Origin: Treponema vincentii
GTDB lineage: Bacteria; Spirochaetota; Spirochaetia; Treponematales; Treponemataceae
Reading direction: 5' to 3'
NCBI RefSeq assembly: GCF_018336815.1
Contig: NZ_CP050497.1
Coordinates: 2,170,001-2,234,000, forward strand
Length of the DNA stretch: 64,000 nucleotides
This document shows, in pieces, positions 4,918 to 48,116 of this stretch; the stretch's first letter is position 1; every line of letters begins with the position of its first letter. A program made the translations under genes and the position numbers. Below the pieces are notes generated by a model. That model did not search any database, was not told the DNA's origin, and was given only the letters and a program-made list of their open reading frames with translations.

Positions 4918-4924
4918 CATCAGA

Positions 4925-5647: not shown

Positions 5648-5650
5648 GGG

Positions 5651-7130: not shown

Positions 7131-7162
7131 ATATACCTCCTCGTATCAAAGCACAATATCTA

Positions 7163-7177: not shown

Positions 7178-7345
7178 CTACAATTTTAAAAGCAACGCTG
7201 TCAATATTAAGCCGTCTGTTAGAAAAGAAGGCGCTATGTAAGGTTTTTAGCGATTCCCATGATATGCTTACAGCGCTCATTCCCGACATACACGGATGCA
7301 TATCGGGAAAAAGACATTACAGGTTTATTGAAAACACAGATGGTT

Positions 7346-7940: not shown

Positions 7941-7952
7941 ACTGCTACCCCC

Positions 7953-29828: not shown

Positions 29829-29847
29829 CTTGTTTTTTGTACGGGAT

Positions 29848-30054
29848 ATGGCTATGATAAAAAACCAACCAAACGGCATACGTCTGCAAGAAGCTGATAA
29901 GGTGCTTATGGCTATAGGCTATCGACTTGACAGACAAAAAGTTTCTCACCGGCAATATATCAATACTGTTGGAAATGTGATTACAATAAAAGCTGATAAT
30001 GTATTGAAAGCGTGCTATATAAAAGATATTTTAAAGCGTGTACAAGAGGCATAA
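29848..30054 (+). CDS. hicA: HicA-type mRNA interferase toxin
   Basis: A 68-residue HicA toxin (dsRBD-like fold). The core ADKVLMAIGYRLDRQKVSHRQY carries the catalytic histidine in the SHRQY motif, followed by IKADNVLKACYIKDILKRV. I place the start at ATG 29848; ATG 29854 and an upstream TTG (29830) are alternatives since none has a strong ribosome site. It is followed by hicB with one base between stop and start. The palindrome upstream is probably bound by HicB. Confidence 0.78.
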   Translation: MAMIKNQPNGIRLQEADKVLMAIGYRLDRQKVSHRQYINTVGNVITIKADNVLKACYIKDILKRVQEA

Positions 30055-30055
30055 A

Positions 30056-30397
30056 ATGGATATAAAAGACTACTTAAATTTACCGTATTCGATTGTTATA
30101 AAAAAGCTATCCGACGAAAGCGGCGAATATTATTATGCTTCCGTTCAGGAACTGGACGGTTGTCGGAGTACCGGCGATTCTTTTGAAGAGGCGTATCGAA
30201 ATATTTACGAAGCGATGGAAGGATGGATTGAAACGAAACTCGAAAACGGCTTTGAAGTTCCAAAACCGGTTGATGAAATGAATTATAGCGGTAAGTTTGT
30301 ACTTCGTATTCCAAAGTCTTTACATAAAAAACTGGCATTACAGGCAGCACAAGAAGGTGTATCGCTCAATCAATATGCAGTGTATAAACTTTCGTAG
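30056..30397 (+). CDS. hicB: HicB-type antitoxin
   Basis: A 113-residue antitoxin. The N-terminal part folds like a degraded RNase H domain (YYYASVQELDGCRSTGDSFEE and AYRNIYEAMEGWIETKLENG), and the C-terminus has a ribbon-helix-helix (GKFVLRIPKSLHKKLALQAA, GVSLNQYAVYKLS) for DNA binding. It would neutralise HicA and repress the pair. It ends nine bases before the end of the convergent helicase gene. Confidence 0.9.
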   Translation: MDIKDYLNLPYSIVIKKLSDESGEYYYASVQELDGCRSTGDSFEEAYRNIYEAMEGWIETKLENGFEVPKPVDEMNYSGKFVLRIPKSLHKKLALQAAQEGVSLNQYAVYKLS

Positions 30398-30406
30398 ACA
30401 CTGACA

Positions 30407-32650
30407 TTACAGCTCTCCCGCATTCTCCTTCCATCCCAGCACCCGCTGCTTCATTCCGGTGATATCCAGTACCCCTAAGGCAAATCCTTTGCGCACCAGC
30501 TCAGCCGGGACATATTCGTCGTATTTGTCAAAGATGGGAACTTCCCTTTCGTACACAAGCTCCAGCGGATCAAAGTTTTGTGCGGCTTCTTCGGCAATAA
30601 TGCGATAGAATTCTTGTGCGCTTACCTGCATGGTGAACTGTAGGTAGTACGGTCGGGACGGACTCAAGCCTTTGAGTCCAAGCCGTGCACCGCAGCGGAG
30701 CTTGAGAAAACGTTCCAACGCAAGAAAGGCATAGCTGCCCAGCTGAGGAAAGAGCGCCCACATAGAGCCGCCGAGGGAAATGAGCGGGTGACTGTCCATC
30801 CCTGCCTTGTGAAATGTATTCCGCGCTTCCTGCAACCGGCACACGGCATGGCGCATCAGGTACGGATAGCTTTTCCGTTCGGCAAGGACAGTATGCACCC
30901 GTTCCAAGATACGGGTGTGTATATCGCCTGCCACATCACCGAAATACGCAGGGATATTCCCTTTTACCAGCGTACAGTATACCTCGCGGCGCTGGTGATC
31001 CACCTCGTCCACTGCCCACACTCTGCCTGCAATGGCTATCTTCTCGCCCGCAGGCGGCGGTTTGACGATTGTTCCCAGCTCTTCGGAACCGGAACGCACC
31101 GTGTACTCGATATTTTCTTGGAACACTGCGTAAAACTTATAATTGTTGACAACCCGCTCTCCTGTAATCCCGACAATCAGCCCGCCGTTTTCCGTGCGGT
31201 TGATATGATCAATAGTGATAAGGTGCCGGAGCAAGGTACGGAAGTCCTCCTGACTGATGCGGCGGAATACCGAAAGGGTCAGTACTTTGGATGCAAGCTC
31301 CGCCGGTGTCATCTCACCTGAGGATGCAAGCGTGCTCATGGTCTGGTGATAGAGCAGGGAAAACGGCAGCTTTTCCGTGCGCGGCGGTTCTACAAAGCGC
31401 TCTTCGATGTAAAGCTGGACGAGCGCAATCCCTTGAATAAGATACCACGGAATCATCTCCGGAAGCATTGCCCGCGCTTCGGGATGATCTTCCCGCATAA
31501 CAAACCACATTTCCGAAGGAGTGCCGCGCCGTCCGGTACGCCCCATACGCTGTAAAAAACCGGAAACGGTAAACGGTGCATCAATCTGGAATGCCCGCTC
31601 CAGCCTCCCGATATCAATCCCCAGCTCCAGTGTAGCCGTAGCACACACACTGATAAGCGAGTCGTCATCCTTCATTTCTTCTTCCGCACTTTCGCGGTAC
31701 GAAGCGGAAAGGTTGCCGTGGTGAATTAAAAAGCGGTCGGGTTCGTGGTTAACTTCACAGTATTGCCGGAGGTGCTGGCATACGGATTCGCACTCCTCGC
31801 GGGAATTGGTAAACACGAGACATTTTCTGCCGCGGGTATGCTCAAAGATATAGCCCATCCCCGGGTCTGCGGCCTTGGGGGCAGTATCCGTCGCGGCTTC
31901 TACGGTAAGCGCCTCTACTGTGATGGGCTTGCCTTCGTCAGCTTGAGGTCCCGTGTTGAAGAAGTGTTCCATCGAAAGCCGCCACACTTCTTTGCCGCCG
32001 TCGCATTTGGGGATAACCGTTTCTCTCCCGCTGCCTGCAGCAAGAAAGGCGCCCGCCTCTTTAGGGTTACCGAGTGTGGCGGAAAGACCGACCCGTCGGG
32101 GATTACAGCCCGCAGTCCGGCAGAGCCGTTCGATCAGGCAAAAGGTTTGCCCGCCGCGGTCGGCACGCAGCAGGGAGTGGACTTCATCAATGACGATAAA
32201 GCGTAGGTCGTGGAACAAAGAGGGTATTTCGCTCTGCTTGGTGATCATCAGCGCTTCAAGGGATTCCGGGGTGATCTGCAAAATCCCCGCCGGTTTACGG
32301 AGCAGCTTCCGCTTTTGGCTCTGCGGCGCATCACCATGCCACCGCGTTACGGCGATTCCCGCTTCTTCGCAGAGCTCATTCAGCCGTCCAAACTGATCGT
32401 TGATGAGCGCCTTGAGCGGAGCGATATACAACACCCCCACCGAGGCGGACGGCTCTTCGTACAAGAGACTCAAGATAGGAAAGAACGCCGCTTCGGTTTT
32501 GCCGGAAGCGGTGGATGCCGTTAAAAGCACATTCTTATCGGTATTGAAAAGAGCATCGCCCGCCGCATTCTGCACCGCACGAAGCGCCTGCCAACCGGAG
32601 CGGTAAATATAATCCTGTATAAAAGGGGCGTATTGATTAAAAATGTCCAT
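30407..32650 (-). CDS. brxHI: DEAD/DEAH helicase, Lhr/BrxHI-type
   Basis: A 747-residue superfamily 2 helicase. Motif I is LTASTASGKTEAA (about residue 50), Ia IAPLKALINDQFGRL, II VIDEVHSLL, III LSATLG, VI FLQRMGRTGRRGTP, followed by a ~350-residue C-terminal extension with an Lhr-like winged-helix region. This form accompanies BrxD-type ATPases in BREX type 2 and in TerB-containing defence clusters. In this island the partner brxD lies 2.9 kb upstream on the same strand, separated by toxin-antitoxin cargo. A ribosome site AAGGA precedes ATG 32650. Role in phage defence is inferred from family and context. Confidence 0.85.
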   Translation of the reverse strand: MDIFNQYAPFIQDYIYRSGWQALRAVQNAAGDALFNTDKNVLLTASTASGKTEAAFFPILSLLYEEPSASVGVLYIAPLKALINDQFGRLNELCEEAGIAVTRWHGDAPQSQKRKLLRKPAGILQITPESLEALMITKQSEIPSLFHDLRFIVIDEVHSLLRADRGGQTFCLIERLCRTAGCNPRRVGLSATLGNPKEAGAFLAAGSGRETVIPKCDGGKEVWRLSMEHFFNTGPQADEGKPITVEALTVEAATDTAPKAADPGMGYIFEHTRGRKCLVFTNSREECESVCQHLRQYCEVNHEPDRFLIHHGNLSASYRESAEEEMKDDDSLISVCATATLELGIDIGRLERAFQIDAPFTVSGFLQRMGRTGRRGTPSEMWFVMREDHPEARAMLPEMIPWYLIQGIALVQLYIEERFVEPPRTEKLPFSLLYHQTMSTLASSGEMTPAELASKVLTLSVFRRISQEDFRTLLRHLITIDHINRTENGGLIVGITGERVVNNYKFYAVFQENIEYTVRSGSEELGTIVKPPPAGEKIAIAGRVWAVDEVDHQRREVYCTLVKGNIPAYFGDVAGDIHTRILERVHTVLAERKSYPYLMRHAVCRLQEARNTFHKAGMDSHPLISLGGSMWALFPQLGSYAFLALERFLKLRCGARLGLKGLSPSRPYYLQFTMQVSAQEFYRIIAEEAAQNFDPLELVYEREVPIFDKYDEYVPAELVRKGFALGVLDITGMKQRVLGWKENAGEL

Positions 32651-32708
32651 CGCAAAATCCTTAGTACCGGAGCGTCTACTGCCTGAGTGTGAGAGACCTG
32701 TATTTCAA

Positions 32709-32969
32709 TTAATCTTCGTAATGTCCGCGACAGGAAAGGATTTCTAAAGTATTTTTACTCACTCGGTACACAAGCCTGTTCACGTCATCAATACGGCGGC
32801 TCCAAAACCCGCTCAATTCGCCCTTTAGAGGCTCCGGTTTACCTATACCGTCAAAGCTTCCTCGTTCAATATCTTTAAGCAGCATATTGATACGCTTTAT
32901 TGTTTTTTTATCTTGTAGTTGCCAATATTCATAATCTTCCCAAGCTTCATCAAACCATATTTTTTTCAT
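32709..32969 (-). CDS. yoeB: YoeB-type ribosome-dependent toxin
   Basis: An 86-residue Txe/YoeB toxin. Typical are WEDYEYWQLQDKKTIKRINMLL, GKPEPLKGELSGFWSRRIDD and the C-terminal RLVYRV...ILSCRGHYED with the catalytic Glu/Arg/His/Tyr set. It overlaps the upstream antitoxin by four bases (ATGA). YoeB usually pairs with YefM; here the partner is of the DinJ/RelB type. Confidence 0.92.
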   Translation of the reverse strand: MKKIWFDEAWEDYEYWQLQDKKTIKRINMLLKDIERGSFDGIGKPEPLKGELSGFWSRRIDDVNRLVYRVSKNTLEILSCRGHYED

Positions 32970-33226
32970 TCATATGCCTCGATAAGCTCATGCTCTACGC
33001 CTTTCCCGGCATTCAGAGCCTCAATGCCGCGGCGTAAATGAGCCATGTTGCTTTCACTGTAGAACGGATCCGTTGCTATTTCAAACGGTATTTTTTGTTT
33101 CCTGACCGCCGTTTTTGCAAATACACAAAATGCTGCTGTCATAGTCATTCCAATCTCGGAACAGAAAGCTTCAAACTGCTTTTTTAAGTCCTCGTCTATA
33201 CGGATATTTATGTTTGTCTGTGCCAT
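32966..33226 (-). CDS. RelB/DinJ-family antitoxin
   Basis: An 86-residue antitoxin with the N-terminal ribbon-helix-helix NINIRIDEDLKKQFEAFCSE and MTMTAAFCVFAKTAV, then a C-terminal toxin-binding tail (PFYSESNMAHLRRGIEALNAG). The start at 33226 is set by AGGGAG upstream; the longer frame to 33277 is not. It overlaps yoeB by four bases. Confidence 0.9.
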   Translation of the reverse strand: MAQTNINIRIDEDLKKQFEAFCSEIGMTMTAAFCVFAKTAVRKQKIPFEIATDPFYSESNMAHLRRGIEALNAGKGVEHELIEAYE

Positions 33227-33264
33227 AATAATAACTCCCTTTATATTTATTGTAGGTATATTTA

Positions 33265-33579
33265 TTGATGATGTCAATATTTTTTAAATTTAGAGATATC
33301 ATACCGGAAGTTTTGTTGAGTTTGTACTACCGGTTATTCGTGCGAGGGTTTAATACCCCGATGCTCGCGTCGGGGTTGTTGATTAAAACTGATGACGGAC
33401 GCGATCTTCCGATTATGACGATGGGTCCGATTTGTATTGCGCCGGAACTAAAGCGGCATGGACAAAGTAATACAACGGTTTTGAAATTGGAAGAAAGAAA
33501 TAAGCAGGATGAAGATTCCTTCGCGTCATTTTGTAATGTGTATAAACTTTTTGAAGAGATTGAAAAGCTGAAGGAATAG
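33265..33579 (+). pseudogene. mosaic remnant of a GNAT acetyltransferase carrying a repeat insert
   Basis: The frame looks continuous but is a patchwork. Residues ~39-70 (LIKTDDGRDLPIMTMGPICI, APELKRHG) match the acetyl-CoA-binding strand of GNAT enzymes, with the expected GxGxxL loop missing. The preceding FVRGFNTPMLASGL is encoded by a 46-bp copy of the palindromic repeat at 33339-33384, and the last ~35 residues resemble nothing. I read this as decayed sequence that stays open by chance. Confidence 0.6.
33339..33384 (+). repeat. short copy of the CGTGCGGAGG repeat
   Basis: CGTGCGAGGGTTTAATACCC, then a CCCGATGC / GCGTCGGGG stem and TTGTTGATT. It is preceded by ATT and ends in ATT, as in the 113-bp copy at 56787. 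The repeat adds about 15 in-frame codons to the GNAT remnant. Confidence 0.8.
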
Positions 33580-33608
33580 GTATATCTCTATTCGGGGACT
33601 TTCATATA

Positions 33609-33800
33609 CTATCTATAACTAAGATCATTGACCATTCCTTTAAAATCTATAAGGGGTAGTTCTAAGGAGCGAGCATAATCGCAAAGTTTACTGTCCCCGG
33701 AAATAAGGAGATCGCATTCTTTTGCCATAAGAAGTACAATGGAATCTGTTATGCCAAGATCATAGAATGCGTAGTGCCGGATAGAAGTTACATTTTCCGG
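33609..33800 (-). pseudogene. C-terminal fragment of a PIN-domain (VapC-like) toxin
   Basis: The minus strand reads TSIRHYAFYDLGITDSIVLL, MAKECDLLISGDSKLCDYAR and SLELPLIDFKGMVNDLSYR before a stop at 33609. The GITDS, LISGDSKL and PLIDF segments are the last strands of a PIN nuclease. There is no start; at about 33797 the sequence switches to the 5' part of a lipoprotein gene in another frame. Confidence 0.7.
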
Positions 33801-33903
33801 TTCCCTGACATTGCGTACAAGTTACTTCTCTTACTCCGCAACTTGCAAATCCAACTAACAATGCCATACATACTAACATTATAACTAAGATTTTTCTTCT
33901 CAT
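33760..33903 (-). pseudogene. 5' fragment of a Cys-rich lipoprotein
   Basis: A 47-codon frame with GGAGA six bases upstream of ATG 33903: MRRKILVIMLVCMALLVGFA then SC (lipobox), then VTCTQCQGTGKC, a DnaJ-like zinc-ribbon start. It then runs into the PIN-domain remnant out of frame and stops at 33760. The expression signals and lipobox are intact, the body is lost. Confidence 0.6.
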
Positions 33904-33953
33904 TTAAAATCTCCTATCAATTGATTTTCGATCAACTTATCCATGGGCATGTA

Positions 33954-34433
33954 TTAATATACTACAAGGTATTTATCTTCATCTAAATACAATTCATCAA
34001 ACGCTTTAGCTGTCCATTCAGATGGATCAGACAAGCTCTCAACTTTTGAATTAACCTTGTATTTCTTATTACCTGGTATATTTGCTATATATCCTCTTTC
34101 TCCTGGATTGATACGTACATAAGAATAATATGATGTAACATCCTCATTATCAATCTCTTTTACATACCAAAAAGTTATAGCAGAATTAGTACTGGCATTT
34201 CTTAAGTAAACCGTATATGTAGGAGAACTACTATCTTCACCACCGTTTTGCTGTCCACCGTTGTTACCGCCGTTGCCGCCGCCGTTTTGCTGTCCACCGT
34301 TGTTACCGCCGTTTTGCTGTTGAGTACTTTGCGGGCTATTTTGCTTTACAGGTTGGTAACACGCTGTAAAAGCTAAAATACAGCACAGCATAGTAATGCT
34401 TGACGCAATACGAATACGCAATAAATTTTTCAT
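33954..34433 (-). CDS. lipoprotein with Gly/Asn/Gln repeat region
   Basis: A 159-residue lipoprotein with lipobox CILAFTAC. Residues ~35-70 are a low-complexity stretch (QQNGGNNGGQQNGG, NGGNNGGQQNGGED) encoded by near-identical 27-bp DNA repeats at about 34240-34320. The folded part (PTYTVYLRNASTNSAITFWY, GERGYIANIPGNKKYKV) is a small beta domain of unknown type. AAGGAG precedes ATG 34433, and a clean promoter lies at 34468-34496. Lies inside the defence island between brxD and brxHI. Confidence 0.75.
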   Translation of the reverse strand: MKNLLRIRIASSITMLCCILAFTACYQPVKQNSPQSTQQQNGGNNGGQQNGGGNGGNNGGQQNGGEDSSSPTYTVYLRNASTNSAITFWYVKEIDNEDVTSYYSYVRINPGERGYIANIPGNKKYKVNSKVESLSDPSEWTAKAFDELYLDEDKYLVVY

Positions 34434-34467
34434 AAAAACTCCTTTTCATTAAGTATATGTTGTAATA

Positions 34468-34496
34468 ATTTTACATACTATATTAGGTATTGTCAA
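34468..34496 (-). promoter_or_regulatory. sigma-70-type promoter of the repeat lipoprotein
   Basis: On the minus strand TTGACA (34491-34496), 17 bases, TAAAAT (34468-34473), about 35 bases before the lipoprotein start. Confidence 0.75.
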
Positions 34497-34543
34497 TACT
34501 TGATTTATTTGACTGCATACAATATTTCATAAAGAATTAAATA

Positions 34544-34822
34544 ATGGATGTACAAGAATTGGAATTATATGTCTGTCGGCGCCTCAGACAGGAACGAGAG
34601 CGTCTCGGCTATTCGCAGATGACGCTTGCGTATGAATCGGGAGTCTCGCAGAATATGATTACCTACATCGAAACGGGAAAACGGACTCCGACTTTAAATA
34701 CACTGCTAAAATTATGTACCGCAATGAAAATCGATCCGTCTATTTTATTTCCACAGAACGCTATTCTGTCGAAGGATGAAGCTAAAAAGACGATTATCAA
34801 CTTAATTGAATTGTATCTGTAA
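34544..34822 (+). CDS. XRE-family helix-turn-helix regulator
   Basis: A 92-residue DNA-binding protein of the lambda-repressor/XRE type: LRQERERLGYSQMTLAYESG, VSQNMITYIETGKRTPTLNT, LLKLCTAMKIDPSILF. There is no extra effector domain. It is the only plus-strand gene between hicB and ggt and may control neighbouring island genes. It has a weak ribosome site. Confidence 0.85.
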   Translation: MDVQELELYVCRRLRQERERLGYSQMTLAYESGVSQNMITYIETGKRTPTLNTLLKLCTAMKIDPSILFPQNAILSKDEAKKTIINLIELYL

Positions 34823-34919
34823 AACTTAAAAGTTTGATGCCCAAAATTGATATGAGTGCCGTGTGCAAAAAGAGCAGGCACTATTCTTTTACTCACTAAA
34901 AGAACATACGAGCATTATT

Positions 34920-35258
34920 TTATTCGATCATCAACTGTATGTTTTGAACGACAGAATCAATTTCTTCAGCGGCTGCTTTTTCTATGAAATGACAGTTTCG
35001 TTGTTTCCAGTCAAGACTTTTTATTTGATCACTCAATATACATCCGCTGATTGAATGCCCATTCAGCACAATTTCAAAAGGGTACCCTTTTATATGGCTT
35101 GTAATCGGACAGATCAAAGCAAGTCCGATTTTTTGATTATATTGTTTATGAGAAATACAAATTGCAGGGCGTCGGCCTTTTTGCTCATGCCCTATCTGCG
35201 GATCAAAATCGAGCCAGACTAGATCGCCTTTTTCAGGGACATAATTTGAATTTACCAT
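34920..35258 (-). CDS. mazF: MazF/PemK-type endoribonuclease toxin
   Basis: A 112-residue toxin with the family start VPEKGDLVWLDFDPQIGHEQ, KGRRPAICISHKQYN, ICPITSHIKGYPFEIVL and DQIKSLDWKQRN. The catalytic Arg and Thr/Ser positions are present. It overlaps mazE by seven bases. Confidence 0.93.
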   Translation of the reverse strand: MVNSNYVPEKGDLVWLDFDPQIGHEQKGRRPAICISHKQYNQKIGLALICPITSHIKGYPFEIVLNGHSISGCILSDQIKSLDWKQRNCHFIEKAAAEEIDSVVQNIQLMIE

Positions 35259-35485
35259 GCTTCTTTTCCAGCTGCATATCCTGTAGAAATTTCCGAATGT
35301 ATATTCTCTTCATTTACTAGCGCAAGCATAGCATCAAGAGATTTTTTTTGAGGAAGAATAATGATCTTTTCCTTTTCCATAATCACTTCAACGGTACTGC
35401 CGTTTTTTATATCATTATCTTTTGCCCAAAACGAAGGGATTCTCAAACCTAAACTATTACCCCATTTCTGAACTACAGCCTGCAT
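35252..35485 (-). CDS. mazE: MazE-type antitoxin
   Basis: A 77-residue SpoVT-AbrB protein: VVQKWGNSLGLRIPSFWAKD, IKNGSTVEVIMEKEKIIILP, then an acidic tail that would bind MazF. GGAGG precedes ATG 35485. Confidence 0.93.
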   Translation of the reverse strand: MQAVVQKWGNSLGLRIPSFWAKDNDIKNGSTVEVIMEKEKIIILPQKKSLDAMLALVNEENIHSEISTGYAAGKEAW

Positions 35486-35507
35486 ACCAGTACCTCCGCA
35501 TAGTCAG

Positions 35508-35535
35508 TGTATACAATGTATAGACCGGTTGTCAA
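35508..35535 (-). promoter_or_regulatory. mazEF promoter with overlapping TGTATACA operator
   Basis: Minus strand: TTGACA (35530-35535), 16 bases, TATACA (35508-35513). TGTATACA, a perfect palindrome, overlaps the -10 and a second GTATAC lies at about 35552, matching the habit of MazE to bind its own promoter. Confidence 0.65.
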
Positions 35536-35573
35536 GCAAGAGTATACATGAAAAAGGAATTATGTAGTTCACC

Positions 35574-36905
35574 TTAAATCGTAAACTCGGCATAGTTTTC
35601 ATCGGTGGTGTCCGATACCGCATCAGACTTTGCATACGAAAATGTATCGGAGTTTAGTAACTCGATAATGCTCATTCCCGGATTTTGGTACAAAATATCC
35701 AGCAGCTCGATAAAATCCCGGATTACTTCGCGCGGGGTGATATGTACATCGGCACCGATCCGCTCATATTCAATTTTGATAAACCCAGCCAAATCGTTCG
35801 TGGTGATTTTCTGTTCATAGCCATAGAGTCCGGCGTGCATCGCGGCGAGTTTTTCACAGAGGATCAGCATTTCTTCCGCAGTAATCGGGTCAAGTCTGAT
35901 TACCGGCGCAAGTAAGTCCCGTGCACCGGGCTTGGAAAACTTCCCCTCTGCAAGCCGGGAGCGGAGTGCCTCGTAGCTGTACACACCGCGCCGCTTATCC
36001 TCTATTGCCTGCGGTGTTGCCCCCATGATAATACCGAGGTATTTTGCCTTTCCTTGTAAGGTGTCGTTGTACATGGTGAGGAGTTTTTCGTAATTGTACT
36101 GGCGCGTGATTGAGTTGGGAACTTTATAAATATTGACGAGTTCGTCGATCATAATCATCATGCCGGAGTAGCCCGCCAGCCGAAAAAATGTTGCAAAGAG
36201 CTTGAGATACTCGTACCAGTCATCATCTGTGATAATGATATTGACACCGAGTTCTTCCTTTGCTTCGCGCTTGAGGGCATATTCACCCCGGAACCACCGC
36301 ACTACTTTTGCTTTCGTTTCATCATCGCTCTTGAGGTAGGCATGATAATAGGCTGAAAGTAATTGCGCAAACTCAAAACCGTGTACCAGCTCGCTCACCG
36401 AAGCGGTTACGGCATAAATCTTTTGATCGACACGCGCAGTCAGCGCCGGGTCTCCGGGTTGCAGCCCGCTTTCTTGCAAAGCTTCATTTTGCACGGTGCT
36501 GATCCACCGCTCCAATATCAGCGTGAGTGCACCGCCCTCCGGTTTTGTCTTTGTGGAAAGATTCCCGATCAGCTCGCGATAAGTTGCCAGCCCCTGCCCC
36601 CGCGTTCCTTGCAGTCTCCGCTCCGGGGACAGGTCTGCATCCGCAACAATGAACCCGCGATCCATCACATAATTTCGGATAGCTTGCAGTAAAAAACTCT
36701 TTCCCGCTCCATACCGTCCGACAATAAACCGGAACGAAGCGCCGCCTTCGGAGATAATATCAACATCATGCAGCAAGGCTTGAATTTCATTTTTCCTTCC
36801 GACGGTAATATAGGGCAGCCCGATACGGGGCACAACACCGCCTTTTAAAGAATGTAATACTGTCTGCGCAATCCGCTTAGGAACTTTTCTTTCTGCTTCG
36901 TTCAT
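35574..36905 (-). CDS. brxD: BrxD-type P-loop ATPase (DUF2791)
   Basis: A 443-residue ATP-binding protein. Walker A is GRYGAGKS (residues 63-70), Walker B is MMIMIDELVNIYK, with IGLPYITVGRKNEIQALL at the N-terminus and LGIIMGATPQAIEDKRRGVY further on. This is the DUF2791/BrxD family, found in BREX type 2 next to brxHI and, in other bacteria, next to TerB-N proteins. Here it lies between the type IIG gene and mazE. Its helicase partner is downstream, past about 2.9 kb of cargo. Function in phage restriction is inferred. Confidence 0.87.
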   Translation of the reverse strand: MNEAERKVPKRIAQTVLHSLKGGVVPRIGLPYITVGRKNEIQALLHDVDIISEGGASFRFIVGRYGAGKSFLLQAIRNYVMDRGFIVADADLSPERRLQGTRGQGLATYRELIGNLSTKTKPEGGALTLILERWISTVQNEALQESGLQPGDPALTARVDQKIYAVTASVSELVHGFEFAQLLSAYYHAYLKSDDETKAKVVRWFRGEYALKREAKEELGVNIIITDDDWYEYLKLFATFFRLAGYSGMMIMIDELVNIYKVPNSITRQYNYEKLLTMYNDTLQGKAKYLGIIMGATPQAIEDKRRGVYSYEALRSRLAEGKFSKPGARDLLAPVIRLDPITAEEMLILCEKLAAMHAGLYGYEQKITTNDLAGFIKIEYERIGADVHITPREVIRDFIELLDILYQNPGMSIIELLNSDTFSYAKSDAVSDTTDENYAEFTI

Positions 36906-36929
36906 GTTGTTTCCTTTTTCAAGTATCTT

Positions 36930-39842
36930 TTATCTATCTTTCATATTGATTCTATTGCGAACAGATTCTATTAACAATGAATAAACCATTTCAAGTATAT
37001 TTGTATTAATTCCAAAGGATTGTAATATAATTTTATCAAAATGAATCCTATCTTCTTTTTTTATTTCTTCAAAGATTGTTCCAACCTCTCTTTTTTCTAT
37101 AGCTTTAAAAGCATTTATAATTTCTGTTTTTTGTTTTTCATCTAATAATTCAGGATTTAATGCACGAAGATTTTTTAGATATGTTGCATTTAAATCCAAA
37201 GCACCTAAATTACGGGAGGTTCCTCTCATTTCTAGAGTTAAATAAGTTATTGCAGAATTCAGTAAAGCTGTAATTAATTCGGTAGCAAATATATCATTCG
37301 TTCTCATTGCTATCAATCGTTGGTCGATAACAAACGGTACTTTAGAATAGGTGAAGAAAAATCGTTGATACGGATTAATAGCTGTTATAACATTAGCAGT
37401 TTTTGGCTGTAAGGAATACCAATAAGGCTTATGACCTGCATTTGCTTCAGAAATAGTTTTGCTTTCATTTTTGTTAGGCCTATCTTTAAATTTATCAATC
37501 CATTTTTTTGTGCCTTCTTTTAAATTCTTATAATCTTCATTGCAGACAAAGAGATAATTCGAAAAAATATTTTGGAAAAGCATAGAAGACAATTCTGTCG
37601 GAGACTTTATCATTGGGATTAAAAATCGGGATTCAATTTTTATTTCTATTTTCTTTTTTTCTTCTATTATAAACATTTTATTCCAACCGGTTCGTTCTCC
37701 TCTAATAACTTCAAAGATACTTGGAAAGTATTTAACCAAATATTTATCAAAGGGATGGAAAAGATTGGATGAAATAAAAAATTCGGACCAGTTTGTTTGT
37801 TTGTCAATAGAATCGACAAGAGTCTTTTTTGAAATAATACTGACAGAAAAATTATCAGTTTTGTTAACATATAAATCTGAAAAGAATTCGTTTTGTTTCC
37901 ACTTGATATTTTTACTGTCATTACAAGTATCAATATCTGCATAGAAATCTTCAATTTTTTGAATTTGCTCTTGTGTACTTTTTTTATTAAAGAATTCAGA
38001 GAGTTTAAAGTTTATTGTTACAAATTTTGTAGACTCATCATTTACAACTTTTTCCAAAACAAAATATATTGTGGCTACCTGTGAATCAGTAAACCAATGT
38101 TCAGCTTTACTCTGTATAATATATTTTATATGAAAATTATCTAATAAAAACTTTTTAAATTGAAATCCATATTCTTTTCCTAGCCATGCGTTTGAGGTAA
38201 TTGCCGAAAGGATACCGCCATCTTTTAAGAAAGTGATCGAATTATATATACAATAAGTAAAATAGTCTGATCGCTCATTTATTTTAAATGCTCCATTTTT
38301 AAAGAAAGCTTGTTGCTTTTCTTGAAAAAGTTTTCTAAAGTGCTTCGTTAAAATTTCATTAGGGATGTCTTCTTGTTGAATAAAGGGAAAATTGCTTGCT
38401 ATTCCATCAAAGAGAGGTATTTTAACGGAAATATGTTCGATATAATTCTGTGAATCAGGAAAAATAATTTCTTTTCCGACTTCTAAATTAAAATAATCAT
38501 TTCTTATTATTCTTGGGAAATTATCAGTTTTTGTTACATCTTGTTTATATAGATTTATAACTGATAGAATCGCCGGAAAATGAGATATATCATTCCCCCA
38601 AATATGACTTAATAAAATCGAATGATTATCAATGCCGTAAAAATTTAAAATTTTATAAAAAGAATTTAAAAGACTGCCTGTCCCACAAGTAGGATCAAAC
38701 AAAAAAGCTGAATTTGTTTTTACAGTAGGGAACGAAACTAAATGTGCTAAAATTTCCGGTGTAAAATATTGTCCAAACTTTTGTTTTTCATTTTTAGGCA
38801 CTAAGTTTTCAAGGATATTTCCAATTACTTCTGTCGGTAAGATTTTAAAATCAAATTCTGTTAATACCGAAATTAAGCCAAATAAGGCTTTTTCAGTTAT
38901 ATCAGAATATTCTATAAAATCAGTAAAATAAGGTTGAAATATTGCTTGGTAATCTATTTTTTGTGCTCTTTCAAAATAACTATTAAGGATTAATTTTAAA
39001 TTATGTGTTTTTTCAATTTTTACCCTTTGAAGCTCTCCGCTTAAATTTTCACATAATGTAAGATAAAATAGAATTTTTCCTACCAAGTTATAAAAAGTAA
39101 ACTTTGCGAGTACTTGTTCAGGAACAATATGTTCAGCCCTTTTTGATGAAGATGATAGTATTTTTAATGTAGAACTTTCATATATTTTCCATTTATTAAA
39201 ATTTGATCGAAATAAGGTATTTATATTTTTTTCATTTTCAATACTCGACTGAAATTGCGGAATTATGATGCTAGCCGTATCCTGGATTGCTTTAACGATA
39301 TTTCTTGTGATGTTTATTGCCGGTTTTAATTTTCCTTCTGTATAAAGATGTTCTAAATCATGCAAAATATTATAAGCTCGTTGTTTCAATAACGGCTCAT
39401 TTTTAACAAAATTAATAGGGTCTGATAAATCTTCGCGACTTGAAATCGTTGCTTCCTTGGGATATTCTTTTATTCTTACAAGAGTATCAATTGTGTATTC
39501 AGCTGTATTTATTCCCCATATTACAGCTTGCATTCCATTCCATGTAACAAAAGATTCTGCTCTTATTTTTTTTGCTTTTTCTAATGCATTATTAAGCATT
39601 TCATAATCATCAACAGGAGTGTCAGGAAATTTTAACTCCCACCCATTAAAAATGACACCGGAAATTTTGTCGGTAAATAGCAATATATCCGGAAATTTGG
39701 TCTTTCCTGATTCCATTTTAATGCCGGTATCATTGGTTGCATCTTGGAAGATAGTAACTTTCTTTTCTATTGCAGATTTTAACCAACTAATTAATTGTCC
39801 TGCCCAGTCTCGTTCATTTCTTTTTACTGATGTACCGGCCAT
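36930..39842 (-). CDS. type IIG-like restriction endonuclease/N6-adenine methyltransferase
   Basis: A 970-residue fusion. The first ~100 residues hold a nuclease-type pattern: P51-D52 in KFPDILLF and E69-L-K71 in GWELKFPD. The methyltransferase core has motif I FDPTCGTGSLLNSFY (about residue 382) and motif IV as SNFPFI (about 482) in place of NPPF/Y. The C-terminal third resembles a target-recognition domain. DNA here is clearly more AT-rich than the flanking terB and brxD genes, which suggests recent entry. It starts one base after the beta-class methyltransferase stop. Confidence 0.83.
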   Translation of the reverse strand: MAGTSVKRNERDWAGQLISWLKSAIEKKVTIFQDATNDTGIKMESGKTKFPDILLFTDKISGVIFNGWELKFPDTPVDDYEMLNNALEKAKKIRAESFVTWNGMQAVIWGINTAEYTIDTLVRIKEYPKEATISSREDLSDPINFVKNEPLLKQRAYNILHDLEHLYTEGKLKPAINITRNIVKAIQDTASIIIPQFQSSIENEKNINTLFRSNFNKWKIYESSTLKILSSSSKRAEHIVPEQVLAKFTFYNLVGKILFYLTLCENLSGELQRVKIEKTHNLKLILNSYFERAQKIDYQAIFQPYFTDFIEYSDITEKALFGLISVLTEFDFKILPTEVIGNILENLVPKNEKQKFGQYFTPEILAHLVSFPTVKTNSAFLFDPTCGTGSLLNSFYKILNFYGIDNHSILLSHIWGNDISHFPAILSVINLYKQDVTKTDNFPRIIRNDYFNLEVGKEIIFPDSQNYIEHISVKIPLFDGIASNFPFIQQEDIPNEILTKHFRKLFQEKQQAFFKNGAFKINERSDYFTYCIYNSITFLKDGGILSAITSNAWLGKEYGFQFKKFLLDNFHIKYIIQSKAEHWFTDSQVATIYFVLEKVVNDESTKFVTINFKLSEFFNKKSTQEQIQKIEDFYADIDTCNDSKNIKWKQNEFFSDLYVNKTDNFSVSIISKKTLVDSIDKQTNWSEFFISSNLFHPFDKYLVKYFPSIFEVIRGERTGWNKMFIIEEKKKIEIKIESRFLIPMIKSPTELSSMLFQNIFSNYLFVCNEDYKNLKEGTKKWIDKFKDRPNKNESKTISEANAGHKPYWYSLQPKTANVITAINPYQRFFFTYSKVPFVIDQRLIAMRTNDIFATELITALLNSAITYLTLEMRGTSRNLGALDLNATYLKNLRALNPELLDEKQKTEIINAFKAIEKREVGTIFEEIKKEDRIHFDKIILQSFGINTNILEMVYSLLIESVRNRINMKDR

Positions 39843-39843
39843 T

Positions 39844-40926
39844 TTATTGTAATGCTACCATTAAATTGGATTCTTCATCGAAATCTTTATTTTTGAAAAC
39901 TTTTGCTAATCTTTTATTGCATACTTCTATGTAATCAATAGCTTGTACTTTGTGCAAAAGGGCATTTTCGTTTTTCTCAATTCCTATAAAATGCCGATTT
40001 TCCATTGCTGCAGCAACAAGGAAGCTGCCGCTACCGCATGCATTATCTAAAATAATATCGCCGGGATTACTGTAGGTACGAATTAAATAACGGCCTAAAG
40101 AAATGGGTTTTTGAGTCGGATGATATACAGCACCTTCGGCTTCAGCTGTTTTAAAGTAAACAAAATCTTCACGGTCTGATGTATCATCATAAAAGACAAC
40201 ATCGTTCGGATAGCGCATACCGTTACTTTGAACATGTCTCGGTTTAAAATCACCGTAACTACCTGTACATTGGTTTTTACGAATACCTTTATCGTAACTT
40301 TCACCTTTTATCATTTGAGGATTATATGTCGGTTGTTTTTTATAAAACACACAAATATCTTCATGTTTTCTAAGCGGTTGTTTTTTTGCATTTAAAAAGT
40401 TTGTTGATTTTGATTTAATCCAAACAATAGTATATTTGAACCAACTCTCATTACTTAAAATTAATTTTGCGGTGAACAATCCTTGTGCTGTTAATACTAT
40501 AGCCCCATTGTCTTTTATAATGCGCGTATATTCAGCCCACAATTTTTTTAAATCAATAACAGAGTCCCATTTATTTTGTGTTGTTCCATACGGTAAATCA
40601 CATAATATCATGTCAATTGATTTATCCGGAATATATCGCATTAAGTCAAGACAGTCACCTTGTAATACTTTGTCTTTTAATTCAGATATGTCCCTTGTAA
40701 AAAGATTTCTCGTTTTATATTCTGCTCTTGGTTCATTTAATTCCAAAAGAACATTATTAAGATCTTCGACCTTGTACCGGCGATAATTATTATATGGATT
40801 TCTGACAGCTTTTAATTTTCCTGTTTTGTCCCAATTTCTTAATGTTGTGGGAGACATATTTAAATATTTTGCAGCTTCTTTTGTTGTTAAGAATTCCGAA
40901 TACTTCACATTATCATTATCAGACAT
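39844..40926 (-). CDS. beta-class DNA methyltransferase with N-terminal MerR-like HTH
   Basis: A 360-residue protein. Residues ~8-55 are a MerR/excisionase-like helix-turn-helix (LTTKEAAKYLNMSPTTLRNW). The methyltransferase part has motif IV CDLPYGTTQNKWD (about residue 110) before motif I DNACGSGSFLVAAAM (about 293), the order of beta-class N6-adenine or N4-cytosine enzymes. GAGAGGTGA sets ATG 40926; the frame is open to 40962. It shares the AT-rich composition of the type IIG gene and is probably its companion methylase. Confidence 0.87.
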   Translation of the reverse strand: MSDNDNVKYSEFLTTKEAAKYLNMSPTTLRNWDKTGKLKAVRNPYNNYRRYKVEDLNNVLLELNEPRAEYKTRNLFTRDISELKDKVLQGDCLDLMRYIPDKSIDMILCDLPYGTTQNKWDSVIDLKKLWAEYTRIIKDNGAIVLTAQGLFTAKLILSNESWFKYTIVWIKSKSTNFLNAKKQPLRKHEDICVFYKKQPTYNPQMIKGESYDKGIRKNQCTGSYGDFKPRHVQSNGMRYPNDVVFYDDTSDREDFVYFKTAEAEGAVYHPTQKPISLGRYLIRTYSNPGDIILDNACGSGSFLVAAAMENRHFIGIEKNENALLHKVQAIDYIEVCNKRLAKVFKNKDFDEESNLMVALQ

Positions 40927-40965
40927 GGTCTCACCTCTCAAAACATTATAAAACCTTATCAAAGG

Positions 40966-42844
40966 CTACACTTTATAGAGACTATTGTCAATACAGTAAT
41001 TAGGGTAGTCCTCCCCTATCGCACTAGCTACATCTCCCCGATAATCTTCCACAAGGGTAATCGTTTCTCCGTCGCATTCCACGACCGTATCGCCGATAAG
41101 ATCAAACAAGGCCTCGTTGATAGCATCGGCGATAACGCTCGGCATTCCATGCTGTGCGGTAATCAATTCCTGTACCGGCTCCCCGCGGAGCAGCATCTGC
41201 AACAGCTGTATCTGCATACCGTCTAACAAACCATCTAACGGAACGGACACTCCGGACGGAACGGATTGTACGAATGCTGAATCCGACGGCACTGCTGCGG
41301 ACGGCATAGATGCGGTCGATGGAACGGCCGCGGGAATCGGTATAGATGCAGCGTCCGGTATAGCATCTCCGTCATATTCGGGAGTACCGGTGTGCTTTGA
41401 GTTTTCCGTCTGTTTGGACGCAGCCTCCGGCGAGCCCATCGTCTCTTCCTCGGTTAACAGGCTGTCTTGAGTTTCAAGCGCATCCTTTCTGATTTTATCC
41501 AGGCCTGAAAAGTCAATCGAGATCTTAGGACGCGCCGCCTCGAGTTTTGCCTGTGCATCCGCTGCGATAACCGCCTCTATATAAGGTATCGCCCACGCTT
41601 CCTCTTTCCTCTCTTTAAGCGGGCGTCCTGTTTTTAAATACAAACGGAAGCGCCGATCAGCTTCATGTAAAAGTTCCGTTATGTGCTGTTGTCCGTCATA
41701 CCATTTGTGATAGCCATATTCATGCCATATATTGTTTTGAAAGCTGTACTTCCGGCATGAGTTCAATTCATAAATTACAGTCTCCCGTTTTCCTCTTCTG
41801 TAATAGAGCGTATTGTTGAGCGGATTCCAGTACCGTGAATACTGTATCCCAAAGCAGAGTTCAAAAAGATCCTTTTCACCCTGACGATATTGTGCCGATG
41901 CGAGCCTCCACACTGCTGCAAAAAGGTAGATTCCTGTTTCTTTATCCTTTTGTATTACAATCGATGAATCGGGGGTTCTCCCGCTGAACAGGCAGAGTGC
42001 GTTAAATATCTCCTTATCGCTGTATTTTTCCGGATTACGTAGAATTTCAATATTGGAATCTCGTTCCAACATTTGACGGGCAGCATATCGGTATGCTATT
42101 TCAGTATCCAGTCCGTTTACCACAGCAAAGTCAAACATCCACTGCTGAATATTATACCGTATATATCCGGTGCTTAATCCTGAATCGATATAGCTTTCTT
42201 TAAACTCTTGTATTTTGTGGAAGCTTTCTTCCGCGGATACCGCTCCTATTCCATTAAACAGCTCAGATAGGTACATCAAAACAAAGGCGTCGCAATTTTT
42301 CTGATAGTTTCCCTTCCGCAATTCAGTTCGCCATGTAAAATACCCGCGTAGCTGAGCTAATGATAAATTATGGTAGGATGGCCAATACTCGTATATTTCT
42401 CCAGTCCAAGGAGCATTATCTTCATAGTTCTCCATGAATTTTCCTTGCACATAGAAGTTTTTGCACTGCTGTCTAAAAGAACCGTCCCCATATTGATAGA
42501 GATTCTTCATTCTACGAATTTGCTCCGGAACATACTTTTTCGACCTTGACGCTGCTCTTTTTGAAATTTTATCCGGTGCTGTTTTTTTGCCGAGAGACAG
42601 CGCTATTCTCCGTCGTTATGTTTTGCCGTACCGTTGTATCATCATTCGGTGTTCTTATTGCAAGCGTTTGACCGGCAAAAAGCGGTGCATCTTGGTACTG
42701 TGCTTGCCCCGTATTGCTGTTATCGAGAATCACGGTGAAGCCGCTTTTTTCAGTGGGGATGCTCTGTTCATCGTAGCTATCTAGTGTATCCATTATTTCC
42801 TGCAATGTTATATAAAAATCCTTTTTGGGCAATACCTCTTGCAA
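40966..42844 (-). pseudogene. TerB-N/TerB-C domain protein, frameshifted near the N-terminus
   Basis: Frame one runs 42844-42569 (QEVLPKKDFYITLQEIMDTL onward) and stops after RQKNSTG; frame two carries the remaining 514+ residues to 40966. Dropping one base from the 7-base tract at 42582-42588 joins them as RQKTAPDKISKRAASRSKKY and gives about 625 residues. The large part has TerB-N features (YGDGSFRQQCKNFY, SYHNLSLAQLRGYFTWRTE) and ends in a TerB-C domain (ISIDFSGLDKIRKDALETQD, DAINEALFDLIGDTVVECDG). ATG 42510 has no ribosome site, which supports the join. A start at 42793 (AGGAAATA ahead of ATG) is also possible. Predicted core of a phage-defence system with brxD and brxHI. Confidence 0.8.
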
Positions 42845-42906: not shown

Positions 42907-42949
42907 AAATTGGCTTTTGCCGAAAAATAACGTTTTAGGAGGATCCGCA

Positions 42950-44698
42950 ATGAAACAACTGAAATTTTTACGATTATTCACATGCGCATCGACTTTGGCT
43001 GCGATGATGCTGGTGTCATGTACCAGTACGCCGCAAGGAGAATCTGCTCAGTCTGCAGAGAATTGGAAGCCGTATGATAAAAACGGTGAGATGATTAGAA
43101 CCGATAGAAATGCGACCGGTAAAATCGGTGTTGTGTCTACCAGTAAAGTTGAAGCAAGCAGGATAGGGGCGGAAATTTTAAGAAAAGGCGGCAACGCGAT
43201 CGATGCTGCTGTTGCAGCAGGTTTTGCACTGGGAGTTGTTGAACCGAACTCTTCAGGTTTAGGCGGCGGCGGATTCATGTTAATCAGAATCGCAAAAACC
43301 GGAGAAACTGTTTTTATCGACTTTAGAGAGCGTGCTCCGCAAAAGTCGTCACCCGAGATGTGGAAGGTGGGTAAAGACGGAAAGGTTGTAGGTAATCAGA
43401 AATTGGAAGGCGGAAAAGCCGCTGCGGTTCCGGGCGAAGTTGCCGGTCTTTTGTATGCACTGGAAAACTACGGAACTATGTCGCGGGAACAGGTTATTCG
43501 TCCTGCTGCTAATCTTGCAAAAAACGGATTCTATGTAACCCCAACTTTATCAAACGATATGAAGTCTCAGTTTGATAAATTGGAAAAATATCCTGAATCG
43601 GCAAAGGTCTTTTTGAACAAAGAAGGACTGCCCTACGAAGTAGACGATCTTTTTACTAACCCCGATATGGCAAAAACCTTGGATATTATCATCAAGAACG
43701 GAAAAGACGGATTCTACAAAGGCGAAGTTGCTGAGGCTATTGTAAAGACGCTCAATAAGTATGACGGGCTGTATACAATGGAAGATTTGGCGAATTACAA
43801 ACCCTTGATACGACAGCCGGTAAAGGGAACCTACCGCGGTTATGAAATTATTTCTTCACCGTCTCCCAGCTCAGGCGGCGCCATCGTTATCGAAATTCTC
43901 AATATTTTGGAAAACTTCGATGTCGGCTCGTTAAAAGTGAACTCACCCGAATATCTGCACTTATTCTCCGAAGCATATAAACTTGCGTATGCGGATAGAG
44001 CGAAGTACATGGGCGACAGCGACTATACGCCGGTTCCGATGAAGGGCTTTGTATCTAAAAAATATGCAAAAGAAATTGCAAAGGATATAGACCTCAAAGT
44101 ATCGCACGAAAGCAAAGCCCATGACCCGTGGCTCTATGAATCCGAAGATACTACTCACTATTCCATCGCTGATAAAGAGGGCAACATGGTTGCAATCACC
44201 AAAACCGTCAACGGTCTGTTCGGAAACAGTGTGGTAGTAGACGGCTATGGCTTTGTGATGAATAACGAAATGGATGACTTTGTACTCGGTGCAGGACATC
44301 CCAATTCGGTAGCGCCCAACAAAACACCGCTGAGCTCCATGTCTCCGACTATCGTGTTAAAAGACGGCAAGCCCTTTATGGTATTGGGTTCACCGGGAGC
44401 GACAAAAATTATCAGCACGGTATCGCAGGTTATCAGTAGAGTAATCGACCACAAGATGGGTATGCAGGAAGCAATCGACACCCCGCGCTTATGGGACAAT
44501 ACATCCAACAAGATCAATGTAGAAACCCGTATTTCCGACGAAACGATCAAGCAACTTGAAGCAATGGGACACAAAGTAAACAAGACTTCCGAATGGGATA
44601 GAGGTATGGGTTCTGTGCAGGGCGTACTGTATAAATCGAATGGAACGCTTGAAGGCGGCGCCGATCCCAGAAGAGACGGCAAAGCGTTAGGTTTATAA
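42950..44698 (+). CDS. ggt: gamma-glutamyltransferase/hydrolase lipoprotein
   Basis: A 582-residue Ntn-hydrolase with a lipobox (MMLVSC). The proenzyme is cut before the nucleophile Thr in EDTTHYSIADKEGNMVAIT (about residue 401). Other marks are GGNAIDAAVAAGFALGVVEP, GLGGGGFMLIR, FIDFRERAP, and AMGHKV near the end. The family splits or transfers gamma-glutamyl bonds, including those in poly-gamma-glutamate (CapD is a relative). AGGAGG precedes ATG 42950. It leads a plus-strand cluster with pgsB, pgsC and pgsW. Confidence 0.93.
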   Translation: MKQLKFLRLFTCASTLAAMMLVSCTSTPQGESAQSAENWKPYDKNGEMIRTDRNATGKIGVVSTSKVEASRIGAEILRKGGNAIDAAVAAGFALGVVEPNSSGLGGGGFMLIRIAKTGETVFIDFRERAPQKSSPEMWKVGKDGKVVGNQKLEGGKAAAVPGEVAGLLYALENYGTMSREQVIRPAANLAKNGFYVTPTLSNDMKSQFDKLEKYPESAKVFLNKEGLPYEVDDLFTNPDMAKTLDIIIKNGKDGFYKGEVAEAIVKTLNKYDGLYTMEDLANYKPLIRQPVKGTYRGYEIISSPSPSSGGAIVIEILNILENFDVGSLKVNSPEYLHLFSEAYKLAYADRAKYMGDSDYTPVPMKGFVSKKYAKEIAKDIDLKVSHESKAHDPWLYESEDTTHYSIADKEGNMVAITKTVNGLFGNSVVVDGYGFVMNNEMDDFVLGAGHPNSVAPNKTPLSSMSPTIVLKDGKPFMVLGSPGATKIISTVSQVISRVIDHKMGMQEAIDTPRLWDNTSNKINVETRISDETIKQLEAMGHKVNKTSEWDRGMGSVQGVLYKSNGTLEGGADPRRDGKALGL

Positions 44699-44725
44699 TC
44701 GGTCAATTCTGAGGAGATAAAACAG

Positions 44726-45259
44726 ATGAAGAAGTTAGTTATTACGATAGTATTTTTATTGTCGGCATTAGCACTTTTTGCGGCTCAATTTGAAAAACCG
44801 GCAACGCTGACATCGATTGGACAAAGCGCCGATGTACAGATGGTAAAAGCCTTGTTAAAAAAGGCAGGGATTGAAGCAAAGTTTGATGCATTGATCACCG
44901 ATGTCGGCTTAAAGGACGAAAAAACACTGATCCTTGCAATCGGCGGCAGCTCTAAGGGATTGGGAGCAGCCGGAATAAAGGCGGAAGATGAGCTTGCCCG
45001 TGCAGAAAAGCTGATTAAAGCAGCAAAAGCAAAAAGCATTAAAATTATTGGGCTACACATCGGCGGAGAAGCGCGGAGAGGAGAACTTTCCGACAAGTTT
45101 GTAAAAGTAGCGGCTCCCTATTGCGATTATTTAATCGTTGTAAATGATGGAAATAAAGACGGACTTTTTACTAAAACAGCCGCCGAAAAAAAGATTTCGC
45201 TGGAGACTGTTCCTAAAATTACGAATACCGTTGAACCTTTAAAAAAGCTGTTTCAGTAA
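44726..45259 (+). CDS. DUF6305-type secreted protein
   Basis: A 177-residue protein with a signal peptide (MKKLVITIVFLLSALALFA) and a Rossmann-like body: repeated strands and glycine turns (LILAIGGSSKGLGAAGIK, IKIIGLHIGGEARRGELS, CDYLIVVNDGNKDG). I recognise it as the DUF6305 family; no function is known. It begins 27 bases after ggt and ends in a strong terminator. It may be the binding component for the permease that follows, a guess from context. Confidence 0.72.
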   Translation: MKKLVITIVFLLSALALFAAQFEKPATLTSIGQSADVQMVKALLKKAGIEAKFDALITDVGLKDEKTLILAIGGSSKGLGAAGIKAEDELARAEKLIKAAKAKSIKIIGLHIGGEARRGELSDKFVKVAAPYCDYLIVVNDGNKDGLFTKTAAEKKISLETVPKITNTVEPLKKLFQ

Positions 45260-45268
45260 TATCTAAAG

Positions 45269-45308
45269 GGCAACCGTATCAGAAATTGTTCAAACGGTTG
45301 CCTTTTTT
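45269..45308 (+). terminator. rho-independent terminator after DUF6305
   Basis: GGCAACCGT (45269-45277) and ACGGTTGCC (45294-45302) form a 9-bp stem followed by six T residues. Confidence 0.88.
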
Positions 45309-45312
45309 GTAC

Positions 45313-45497
45313 GGAATTCTTTTCAAAATTTCCGCACATCTTAGTTTCGAAGGAGATCAATCGCTTCAGACGAATAGATAAAAATCGCAGAATAAGGAGA
45401 TTGGACACCCATTTGAGCTGCGCAGCAGCGAAACTCTGGGTGGACAGTTTCCTTATTCTGCGGGGTATTAAAAAAACACTCTGATGCGATTGATCTA
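45313..45497. repeat. second copy of the palindromic intergenic element
   Basis: It begins with an AAAATTTCCG stem (45313-45336) as ahead of the 14623 copy. Then GATCAATCGC.TCAGA pairs with TCTGATGCGATTGATC at the other end, and CGCAGAATAAGGA with TCCTTATTCTGCG inside. The order and motifs match the 14578-14885 element, but the middle is much shorter. It fills the gap between the terminator and the DctM gene. Confidence 0.8.
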
Positions 45498-45509
45498 TAG
45501 AGGTATACT

Positions 45510-46781: not shown

Positions 46782-46792
46782 AGGAAAAAACT

Positions 46793-46939
46793 ATGATGAT
46801 GTATATCTATTTAGCTCTGCTGTTATATGTTTTGATAATGGTGGTTGCCAATATATTGACGGAAAAAAGTATAACAAAGCAGTTAAATGCTGCACTTGTC
46901 ATTATTCCGTTAATTCTGAGAATTTTATTTATAAAATAA
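46793..46939 (+). CDS. 48-residue membrane protein
   Basis: MMMYIYLALLLYVLIMVVAN begins a short protein with two hydrophobic segments (residues ~4-20 and ~32-47) separated by a polar turn (ILTEKSITKQ). AAAGGA lies upstream. It sits 11 bases after the permease and 12 before the peptidase-like gene, so it is clearly within the operon. Possible small transporter subunit; no family recognised. Confidence 0.6.
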   Translation: MMMYIYLALLLYVLIMVVANILTEKSITKQLNAALVIIPLILRILFIK

Positions 46940-46951
46940 TGAGGGGAAACG

Positions 46952-48082: not shown

Positions 48083-48116
48083 CCGGCTGTTTTATGCAAG
48101 GATAGAGGTATAGCTT

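Follow-up and report, generated by a model that had tools for sequence, protein, structure and literature searches.

Why do the three core genes of what looks like a single antiviral system stand apart on one chromosome, with restriction and toxin genes lodged between them? The question arises from a 64,000 nt window (the whole stretch analysed here, G000:C1:2170001-2234000) of the single-contig 2.71 Mb genome of Treponema vincentii, here G000. The genes sngA, sngB and sngC follow one another on one strand within 12.4 kb and are not adjacent, with cargo at both gene joints (A-B and B-C). Very probably a Shango operon on the chromosome has taken up a segment of cargo at each of these joints. 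A preliminary description had listed a TerB-N/TerB-C gene, a BrxD-type ATPase and a BrxHI-type helicase with methylases and toxin-antitoxin genes among them. All the genes it named were found on the minus strand, in the order and at the coordinates it gave, and matches to the Pfam, NCBIfam and PADLOC profiles used to assign gene families confirm them.

Identity of the core genes

The core of TerB, BrxD-like and BrxHI-like genes is best assigned to the anti-phage system Shango and not to bacteriophage exclusion (BREX), because the PADLOC Shango profiles outscore those of BrxD and BrxHI and because PglZ was not found in the genome. The sngA open reading frame (ORF; 40966..42510, minus strand) encodes TerB-N and TerB-C domains (Pfam TerB_N 6.8e-18, TerB_C 2.3e-19, above cut-off) and matches PADLOC SngA (PDLC03958) at E 2.4e-68 from profile position 81 to 525 of 528. 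The two other matches are nearly full length. They are those of the BrxD-like AAA+ ATPase gene sngB (35574..36905, minus) to PDLC03959 at E 5.1e-190 (positions 3-439 of 439) and of the Lhr/BrxHI-like helicase gene sngC (30407..32650, minus) to PDLC03960 at E 6.9e-280 (5-715 of 720). The A-B-C order is also that of Shango, but the operon in the window is split at both joints and its sngA is frame-shifted at the 5' end and lacks the N-terminal domain of the consensus. Within PADLOC, the sngB product scores 630 bits against SngB and 159 against BrxD (E 5.4e-47), and the sngC product 929 against SngC and 421 against BrxHI (E 2.8e-126). The BrxD equivalog model gives 160 bits, below its cut-off of 350. 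The sngB product further matches the BrxC_BrxD ATPase family (E 5.5e-168), and that of sngC matches DEAD/Helicase_C. The likeness to BREX type 2 (Pgl) lies in this kinship of SngB and SngC with BrxD and BrxHI, but the BREX profile scores fall far below those of Shango. The preliminary description was right that pglZ is absent, since a genome-wide search with PF08665 at E 0.1 gave no match (among control genomes, 9 of 14 matched, 3 above cut-off); no genome-wide search for PglX or PglW was made. The helicase also scores poorly as a housekeeping Lhr, its product reaching 95 bits against PRK09751, which we take to be the Lhr model, with a cut-off of 1496.

Among four genomes, the ratio of nonsynonymous to synonymous substitution rates (dN/dS) is 0.041-0.085 for sngB and 0.049-0.111 for sngC. 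Judged by these ratios, both genes show purifying selection, and the low values are consistent with a system that may still act. Shango of Pseudomonas has modest anti-phage activity, 10-100-fold on plates, according to the available part of its report (PMC10250203). Our literature search found no published Shango mechanism, and the accessible portion of a 2026 review lists it as unknown (PMC12926258).

Two cargo segments in the window

Cargo-free arrangements occur within the genus, where SngB is present in four of seven genomes. In G004 (locus L006), sngA, sngB and sngC are directly joined and neither cargo segment is present, at 98.2% SngB identity to the window. This is the contiguous three-gene order in another member of the genus. 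In G005 (L005), sngB and sngC are joined, a 227-base repeat separates sngA from sngB, and both the toxin segment and the methylases are missing. G006 (L007) likewise lacks the methylases. The proposal that the methylases form an inserted restriction unit is supported by the cargo-free G004 and by the stand-alone occurrence of the unit on plasmids, and the proposal that toxins accumulated between ATPase and helicase by a B-C joint that is tight in G004 and G005 and filled in the window. Base composition, compared gene by gene, sets the inserts apart, with a guanine-cytosine (GC) fraction of 0.286-0.40 against 0.458-0.548 in the core (sngA 0.458, sngB 0.493, sngC 0.548). The neighbouring genes glgA and ggt have 0.439 and 0.455.

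The first segment (~36916..41008, 4.1 kb, minus strand, edges set by comparison with relatives) is a restriction-modification unit at the ribosome-binding site of sngB. With the joint sequences of L006 and L007 as reference, the L007 joint leads into sngB with AGGAAACAACATG; in the window, an identical ribosome-binding site and start come after the end of the type IIG gene, which is why the insert is placed here. Homology to L007 resumes at 36915. The insertion left sngB and its ribosome-binding site intact and contributed the final ~13 residues of the window sngA, which are foreign.

The unit consists of M, a beta-class N6/N4 DNA methyltransferase with a helix-turn-helix (39844..40926, minus; N6_N4_Mtase 1.3e-27, MerR-type helix-turn-helix), and a type IIG restriction-methylation enzyme (36930..39842, minus; PDLC03606 3.7e-118). 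Both genes are AT-rich relative to the core (GC 0.323 and 0.286, respectively). The listed start of M is a TTG at 40962, and translation probably begins at an ATG 36 bases inward, which is preferred for its sequence resembling a ribosome-binding site. In an alignment of four proteins, the type IIG enzyme keeps the nuclease-like motif FPD...GWE-x-K and the methylase motif SN[FL]PF, which read FPD...GWELK and SNFPF in the window. A tblastn search with this enzyme matched 11 plasmid records at 23-28% identity. In all five with at least 98% query coverage, a 63-64% identical match to the methylase adjoins the type IIG match; across plasmid methylases beside type IIG enzymes the identity is 60-64%. 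M stands directly before the type IIG gene on Weissella and Pediococcus plasmids, as it does in the window, and three more records have adjacent matches. The same pair occurs in a genome of the same phylum (G137), and of 149 genomes sampled in that phylum, two, G000 among them, have the type IIG enzyme. On the plasmids and in G137, the pair is a stand-alone two-gene restriction-modification unit. The M of the window differs from two aligned plasmid relatives in having an added N-terminal helix-turn-helix, which might serve self-regulation.

The second segment (~32654..35568, 2.9 kb, minus, edges again set from relatives) lies between sngB and sngC and is rich in toxin-antitoxin genes. Homology to L005 and L006, in which the listed sngB and sngC ORFs are 5 bp apart, ends at 35569 and restarts at 32653. 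Two pairs are intact, both with GC of 0.36-0.40. These are mazE (35252..35485, minus; PF04014 1.1e-11) with mazF (34920..35258, minus; MazF model 134 bits, cut-off 120), and dinJ/relB (32966..33277, minus; TIGR02384 59 bits, cut-off 46) with yoeB (32709..32969, minus; TIGR02116 105 bits, cut-off 52). Between them lie a glycine/asparagine-rich lipoprotein gene (33954..34433, minus; from its translation, with a GRP match under cut-off), gene remnants (33265..33903, strand not assigned) and, on the plus strand, a gene for an XRE-type helix-turn-helix protein (34544..34822; HTH_3 2.7e-12). The XRE gene is an addition to the list of the preliminary description. A promoter-like site precedes each toxin-antitoxin pair. 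Read-through from the core is plausible, because the cargo genes, the XRE gene aside, run in the same direction as sngABC and because terminator-like sites on the minus strand lie only inside sngA or sngC.

G006 adds to the history of this joint. Its Shango genes are split into sngAB (L007) and an oppositely oriented sngC (L122) about 69 kb away. Directly after sngB stand a PIN-domain toxin and a MazE-like antitoxin (match just under cut-off), with a truncated reverse transcriptase of AbiP2-like type behind them. The detached sngC has in front of it an OLD-like ATPase, a type III mod-res pair and, closest to it, the last ~28 codons of a YoeB-like gene, recognized by eye. Within the remnants of the window, a stretch of 118 bases (33462-33579) matches the final part of the reverse-transcriptase remnant in G006 at 90% identity. 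Since the two genomes share this remnant, and since G006 has toxins at sngB and a YoeB stub at sngC, the B-C joint in the genus appears to have a layered, partly shared history. The split in G006 suggests a rearrangement through the B-C joint, and its type III restriction pair may once have been nested in Shango.

Cargo at Shango joints in other genomes

The survey covered 126 loci, namely the window, three congeners, draws at family, order, class and phylum level, the best 80 among 580 confirmed relatives and five plasmid loci. One duplicate was dropped, leaving 125 distinct loci. The A-B joint was visible in 117 loci, spanning at most 200 bp in 106, containing the 227-base repeat in one and exceeding 500 bp in 10. 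The B-C joint, also visible in 117, spanned at most 200 bp in 112 and more than 500 bp in 5. The helicase is therefore regularly placed with the brxD-like and terB genes, and the earlier view of the three as one system holds in that they are joined in relatives; it had missed that this system already bears the name Shango. Not every member of the family keeps the genes adjacent, as 13 of the 125 loci have a joint above 500 bp. Nine of the ten large A-B joints, all but that of the window, come from one order (25 genomes, 12 with SngB). Large A-B joints likely reflect few events, as nearly all are found in that order. On plasmids, SngB was detected in 676 records (E 1e-60), and the five that were viewed all have the three genes joined. 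A megablast search with a Klebsiella operon covered it to at least 80% in 605 of 652 records, and an insertion sequence lay under the match in 1 of the 30 listed.

In 3 of the 125 loci, two Shango genes enclose a restriction system, each time of another type, with G006 as a further case. The preliminary description had missed that such nesting recurs in other genomes. Besides the window, these are L031, labelled as a Bacteroidales metagenome-assembled genome (MAG), and L093, labelled as a Spirochaetales MAG. In L031, sngB is followed by two N6_N4 methylases, an EcoRI-family endonuclease (PF02963 5.3e-151) and sngC. In L093, a 311-aa protein without assigned family and an MmeI-type enzyme with five MmeI domains stand between sngB and sngC; the listed sngC ORF shares four bases with the end of the enzyme gene, and with a start at a later ATG, 14 bases would separate the two. 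The cargo of L031 is absent from its near relatives L054 (92.1% SngB identity), L034 and L038, and the B-C cargo of L093 from L166 (98.9% SngB identity) and L165, which both carry A-B cargo. Nested cargo has a lower GC than the Shango genes measured alongside. The 12 bases GGAGTTCACGAT occur on both sides of the L093 cargo (11294-11332 and 15560-15600), where sngB ends and shortly ahead of sngC, and in a single copy at the tight joint of L097. Because the sequence is double around the cargo and single in L097, it may be read as a target-duplication-like mark.

Other joint cargo includes DUF3791/DUF3990 pairs, PDDEXK_4 nucleases and AAA proteins matching PADLOC 'PDC' models, which we take to denote defence candidates. 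Within one order, a PDDEXK_4 nuclease precedes sngB at the A-B joint of L164 (by scan) and of L166, L167 and L168 (by look-alike translation). At the same position, L093, L097 and L165 have a Sel1-like protein, which indicates cargo turnover at one joint. The ~227-base interspersed repeat (window 45267-45492; L005 11189-11415) has 37 matches in G000 and one copy in the A-B joint of G005. Four congeners hold 23-40 matches and two hold none, with at most 40 candidates scored per genome.

Variability of sngA and surroundings of the locus

The 5' part of the window sngA (42511..42844, minus) is out of frame with the rest, as seen from DNA alignment to L005 and L006 and reading in three frames. The small ORF at 42569-42844, whose nature the preliminary description had missed, aligns at the DNA level with the 5' part of sngA in relatives and is no separate gene. 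Upstream of 42510 the frame is lost, at a run of A that differs in length from its counterparts in G004 and G005. Phase variation, decay or a sequencing error are possible causes, and the shift may weaken sngA. A start at 42510 retains both TerB domains, which lie downstream of the shift. SngA of relatives has 562-608 aa.

SngA is the variable member of the trio. Its dN/dS among the four genomes is 0.168-0.304, and mean pairwise identity across the 83 of 104 loci in which all three proteins were recovered (3403 pairs) is 43.9% for SngA, 80.3% for SngB and 79.6% for SngC. Between G000 and G005, SngA is a mosaic, with 86-98% identity at columns 121-180 and 421-600 and 45-54% between them; G004 and G005 share 91.6% overall. 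A structure model from 61 sequences (mean predicted local distance difference test score, pLDDT, 85.9) has a helical N-terminal domain, a linker of low confidence (362-423) and a small C-terminal domain weakly resembling winged helices. The consensus of 61 aligned SngA proteins (L031-L110) carries an additional domain at its N-terminus, with kinship to PSPTO_3016 (2kfp, E 1.3e-12; 3h9x). The window ORF lacks this domain, and its genus has a different N-terminus. In L067, a larger gene (4751-8029, 1092 aa) stands directly upstream of sngA, and the SngA tblastn match runs into it.

Beside the island, gamma-glutamyltransferase-like and PgsB-like genes recognized by eye (window 42917-49259) suggest a poly-gamma-glutamate locus. 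Directly beyond sngC, on the plus strand, a HicA/HicB-like pair (29830-30397) was noticed by eye from its translation.

Origin and possible role of nested cargo

The best reading is a Shango core that occasionally carries defence cargo at its joints. Several loci do not fit it, since the joint of L095 holds two ordinary genes on the opposite strand, a KilA-N protein is encoded on the opposite strand in the joints of L086 and L162, and an insertion sequence follows sngB in L150. An alternative is ordinary accretion in defence islands, with joints hit no more than other sites and nesting uninformative on function. We give this explanation slightly less than an even chance. The rarity of large joints, at least nine of the 13 loci coming from one order, the cargo of L095 that is not defence-like, the repeat in the G005 joint and the insertion in L150 all favour it, but much of the cargo, not all, is defence-like and co-directional. 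In addition, the nested enzymes and one plasmid type IIG enzyme, used as queries, had matches in three nested loci and in two flanks (L030, L085) despite far longer flanks, with a query set biased to the nested types and a gamma-class hidden Markov model that missed MmeI. Cargo might also have ruined its host. If cargo and the sngA frame shift had inactivated Shango, only the restriction-modification unit and the toxin-antitoxin pairs would work today. The frame shift itself, the remnants in the second insert, the detached sngC of G006 and the failure to find sngC behind the insertion sequence of L150 point that way. We consider such a loss rather unlikely, given that sngB and sngC have kept their full length and have dN/dS of 0.044-0.085 against G004 and G005, that both TerB domains are encoded 3' of the shift, and that the insert preserved the ribosome-binding site of sngB.

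A further possibility is an integrated BREX-like system, in which M and the type IIG enzyme would give the BrxD/BrxHI-like pair a self-mark and a cutting arm, like PglX in BREX type 2. The kinship of the pair, the spacing of only 1-24 bp between listed ORFs from sngA to sngB and the presence of three further kinds of restriction system at Shango joints or beside sngC are compatible with it. The absence of PglZ, the tight and gene-free state of most Shango joints, the stand-alone occurrence of the M-IIG pair on plasmids and the varying type of nested enzyme make it highly improbable. Known systems offer partial parallels. In the available part of PMC8565348, the restriction gene brxU is located between brxC and pglX of the BREX operon of pEFER, and protection is complementary; there the host system differs and the enzyme is a single type IV protein, whereas the window has a type II methylase-IIG pair in Shango together with toxin-antitoxin pairs. 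Embedded nucleases are frequent in BREX core loci and BrxD-BrxHI forms a tightly linked dyad with proposed helicase loading, according to the accessible text of PMC12839542, in which Shango does not appear. The individual parts of the window locus are likewise known, and the new part would be that restriction systems of unrelated kinds nest repeatedly at the joints of Shango. No paper on such nesting was found in open-access literature and the few subscription papers or preprints covered.

For the preferred reading of a Shango core with acquired cargo, comparison shows that a close relative has sngABC without cargo and that the restriction-modification unit came in at the ribosome-binding site of sngB. 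As for the mechanism, the likeness to BrxD and BrxHI suggests that SngB (AAA+, ORC/Cdc6-like) and SngC (a Ski2/Lhr-like helicase) could form a conserved DNA-acting pair, with SngB loading SngC or switching it on at invading DNA. SngA would be the variable partner, with a fast-evolving helical TerB-N core, a disordered linker and possibly a winged-helix-like TerB-C end. The nested enzymes may provide a layer of defence of their own by methylating host DNA and cutting DNA that lacks the modification, and the toxin-antitoxin pairs might stabilise the island or serve as suicide backup. A coupling of Shango and its nested cargo is a hypothesis. In its strongest form, Shango joints would be recurrent docking places for unrelated restriction systems in sense orientation because both layers cooperate, phage DNA that is cut or unmodified by the nested enzyme being the substrate on which SngB loads SngC, and the fast-changing SngA deciding when. 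We regard this version as a long shot.

That unrelated restriction systems lie between the same Shango genes hints at the other layer of defence that Shango tolerates or works with. SngA evolves fast and is a mosaic whereas the ATPase-helicase pair is conserved, which makes SngA the likeliest part to meet the phage, and it likely serves as the infection sensor or the phage-facing part of the system.

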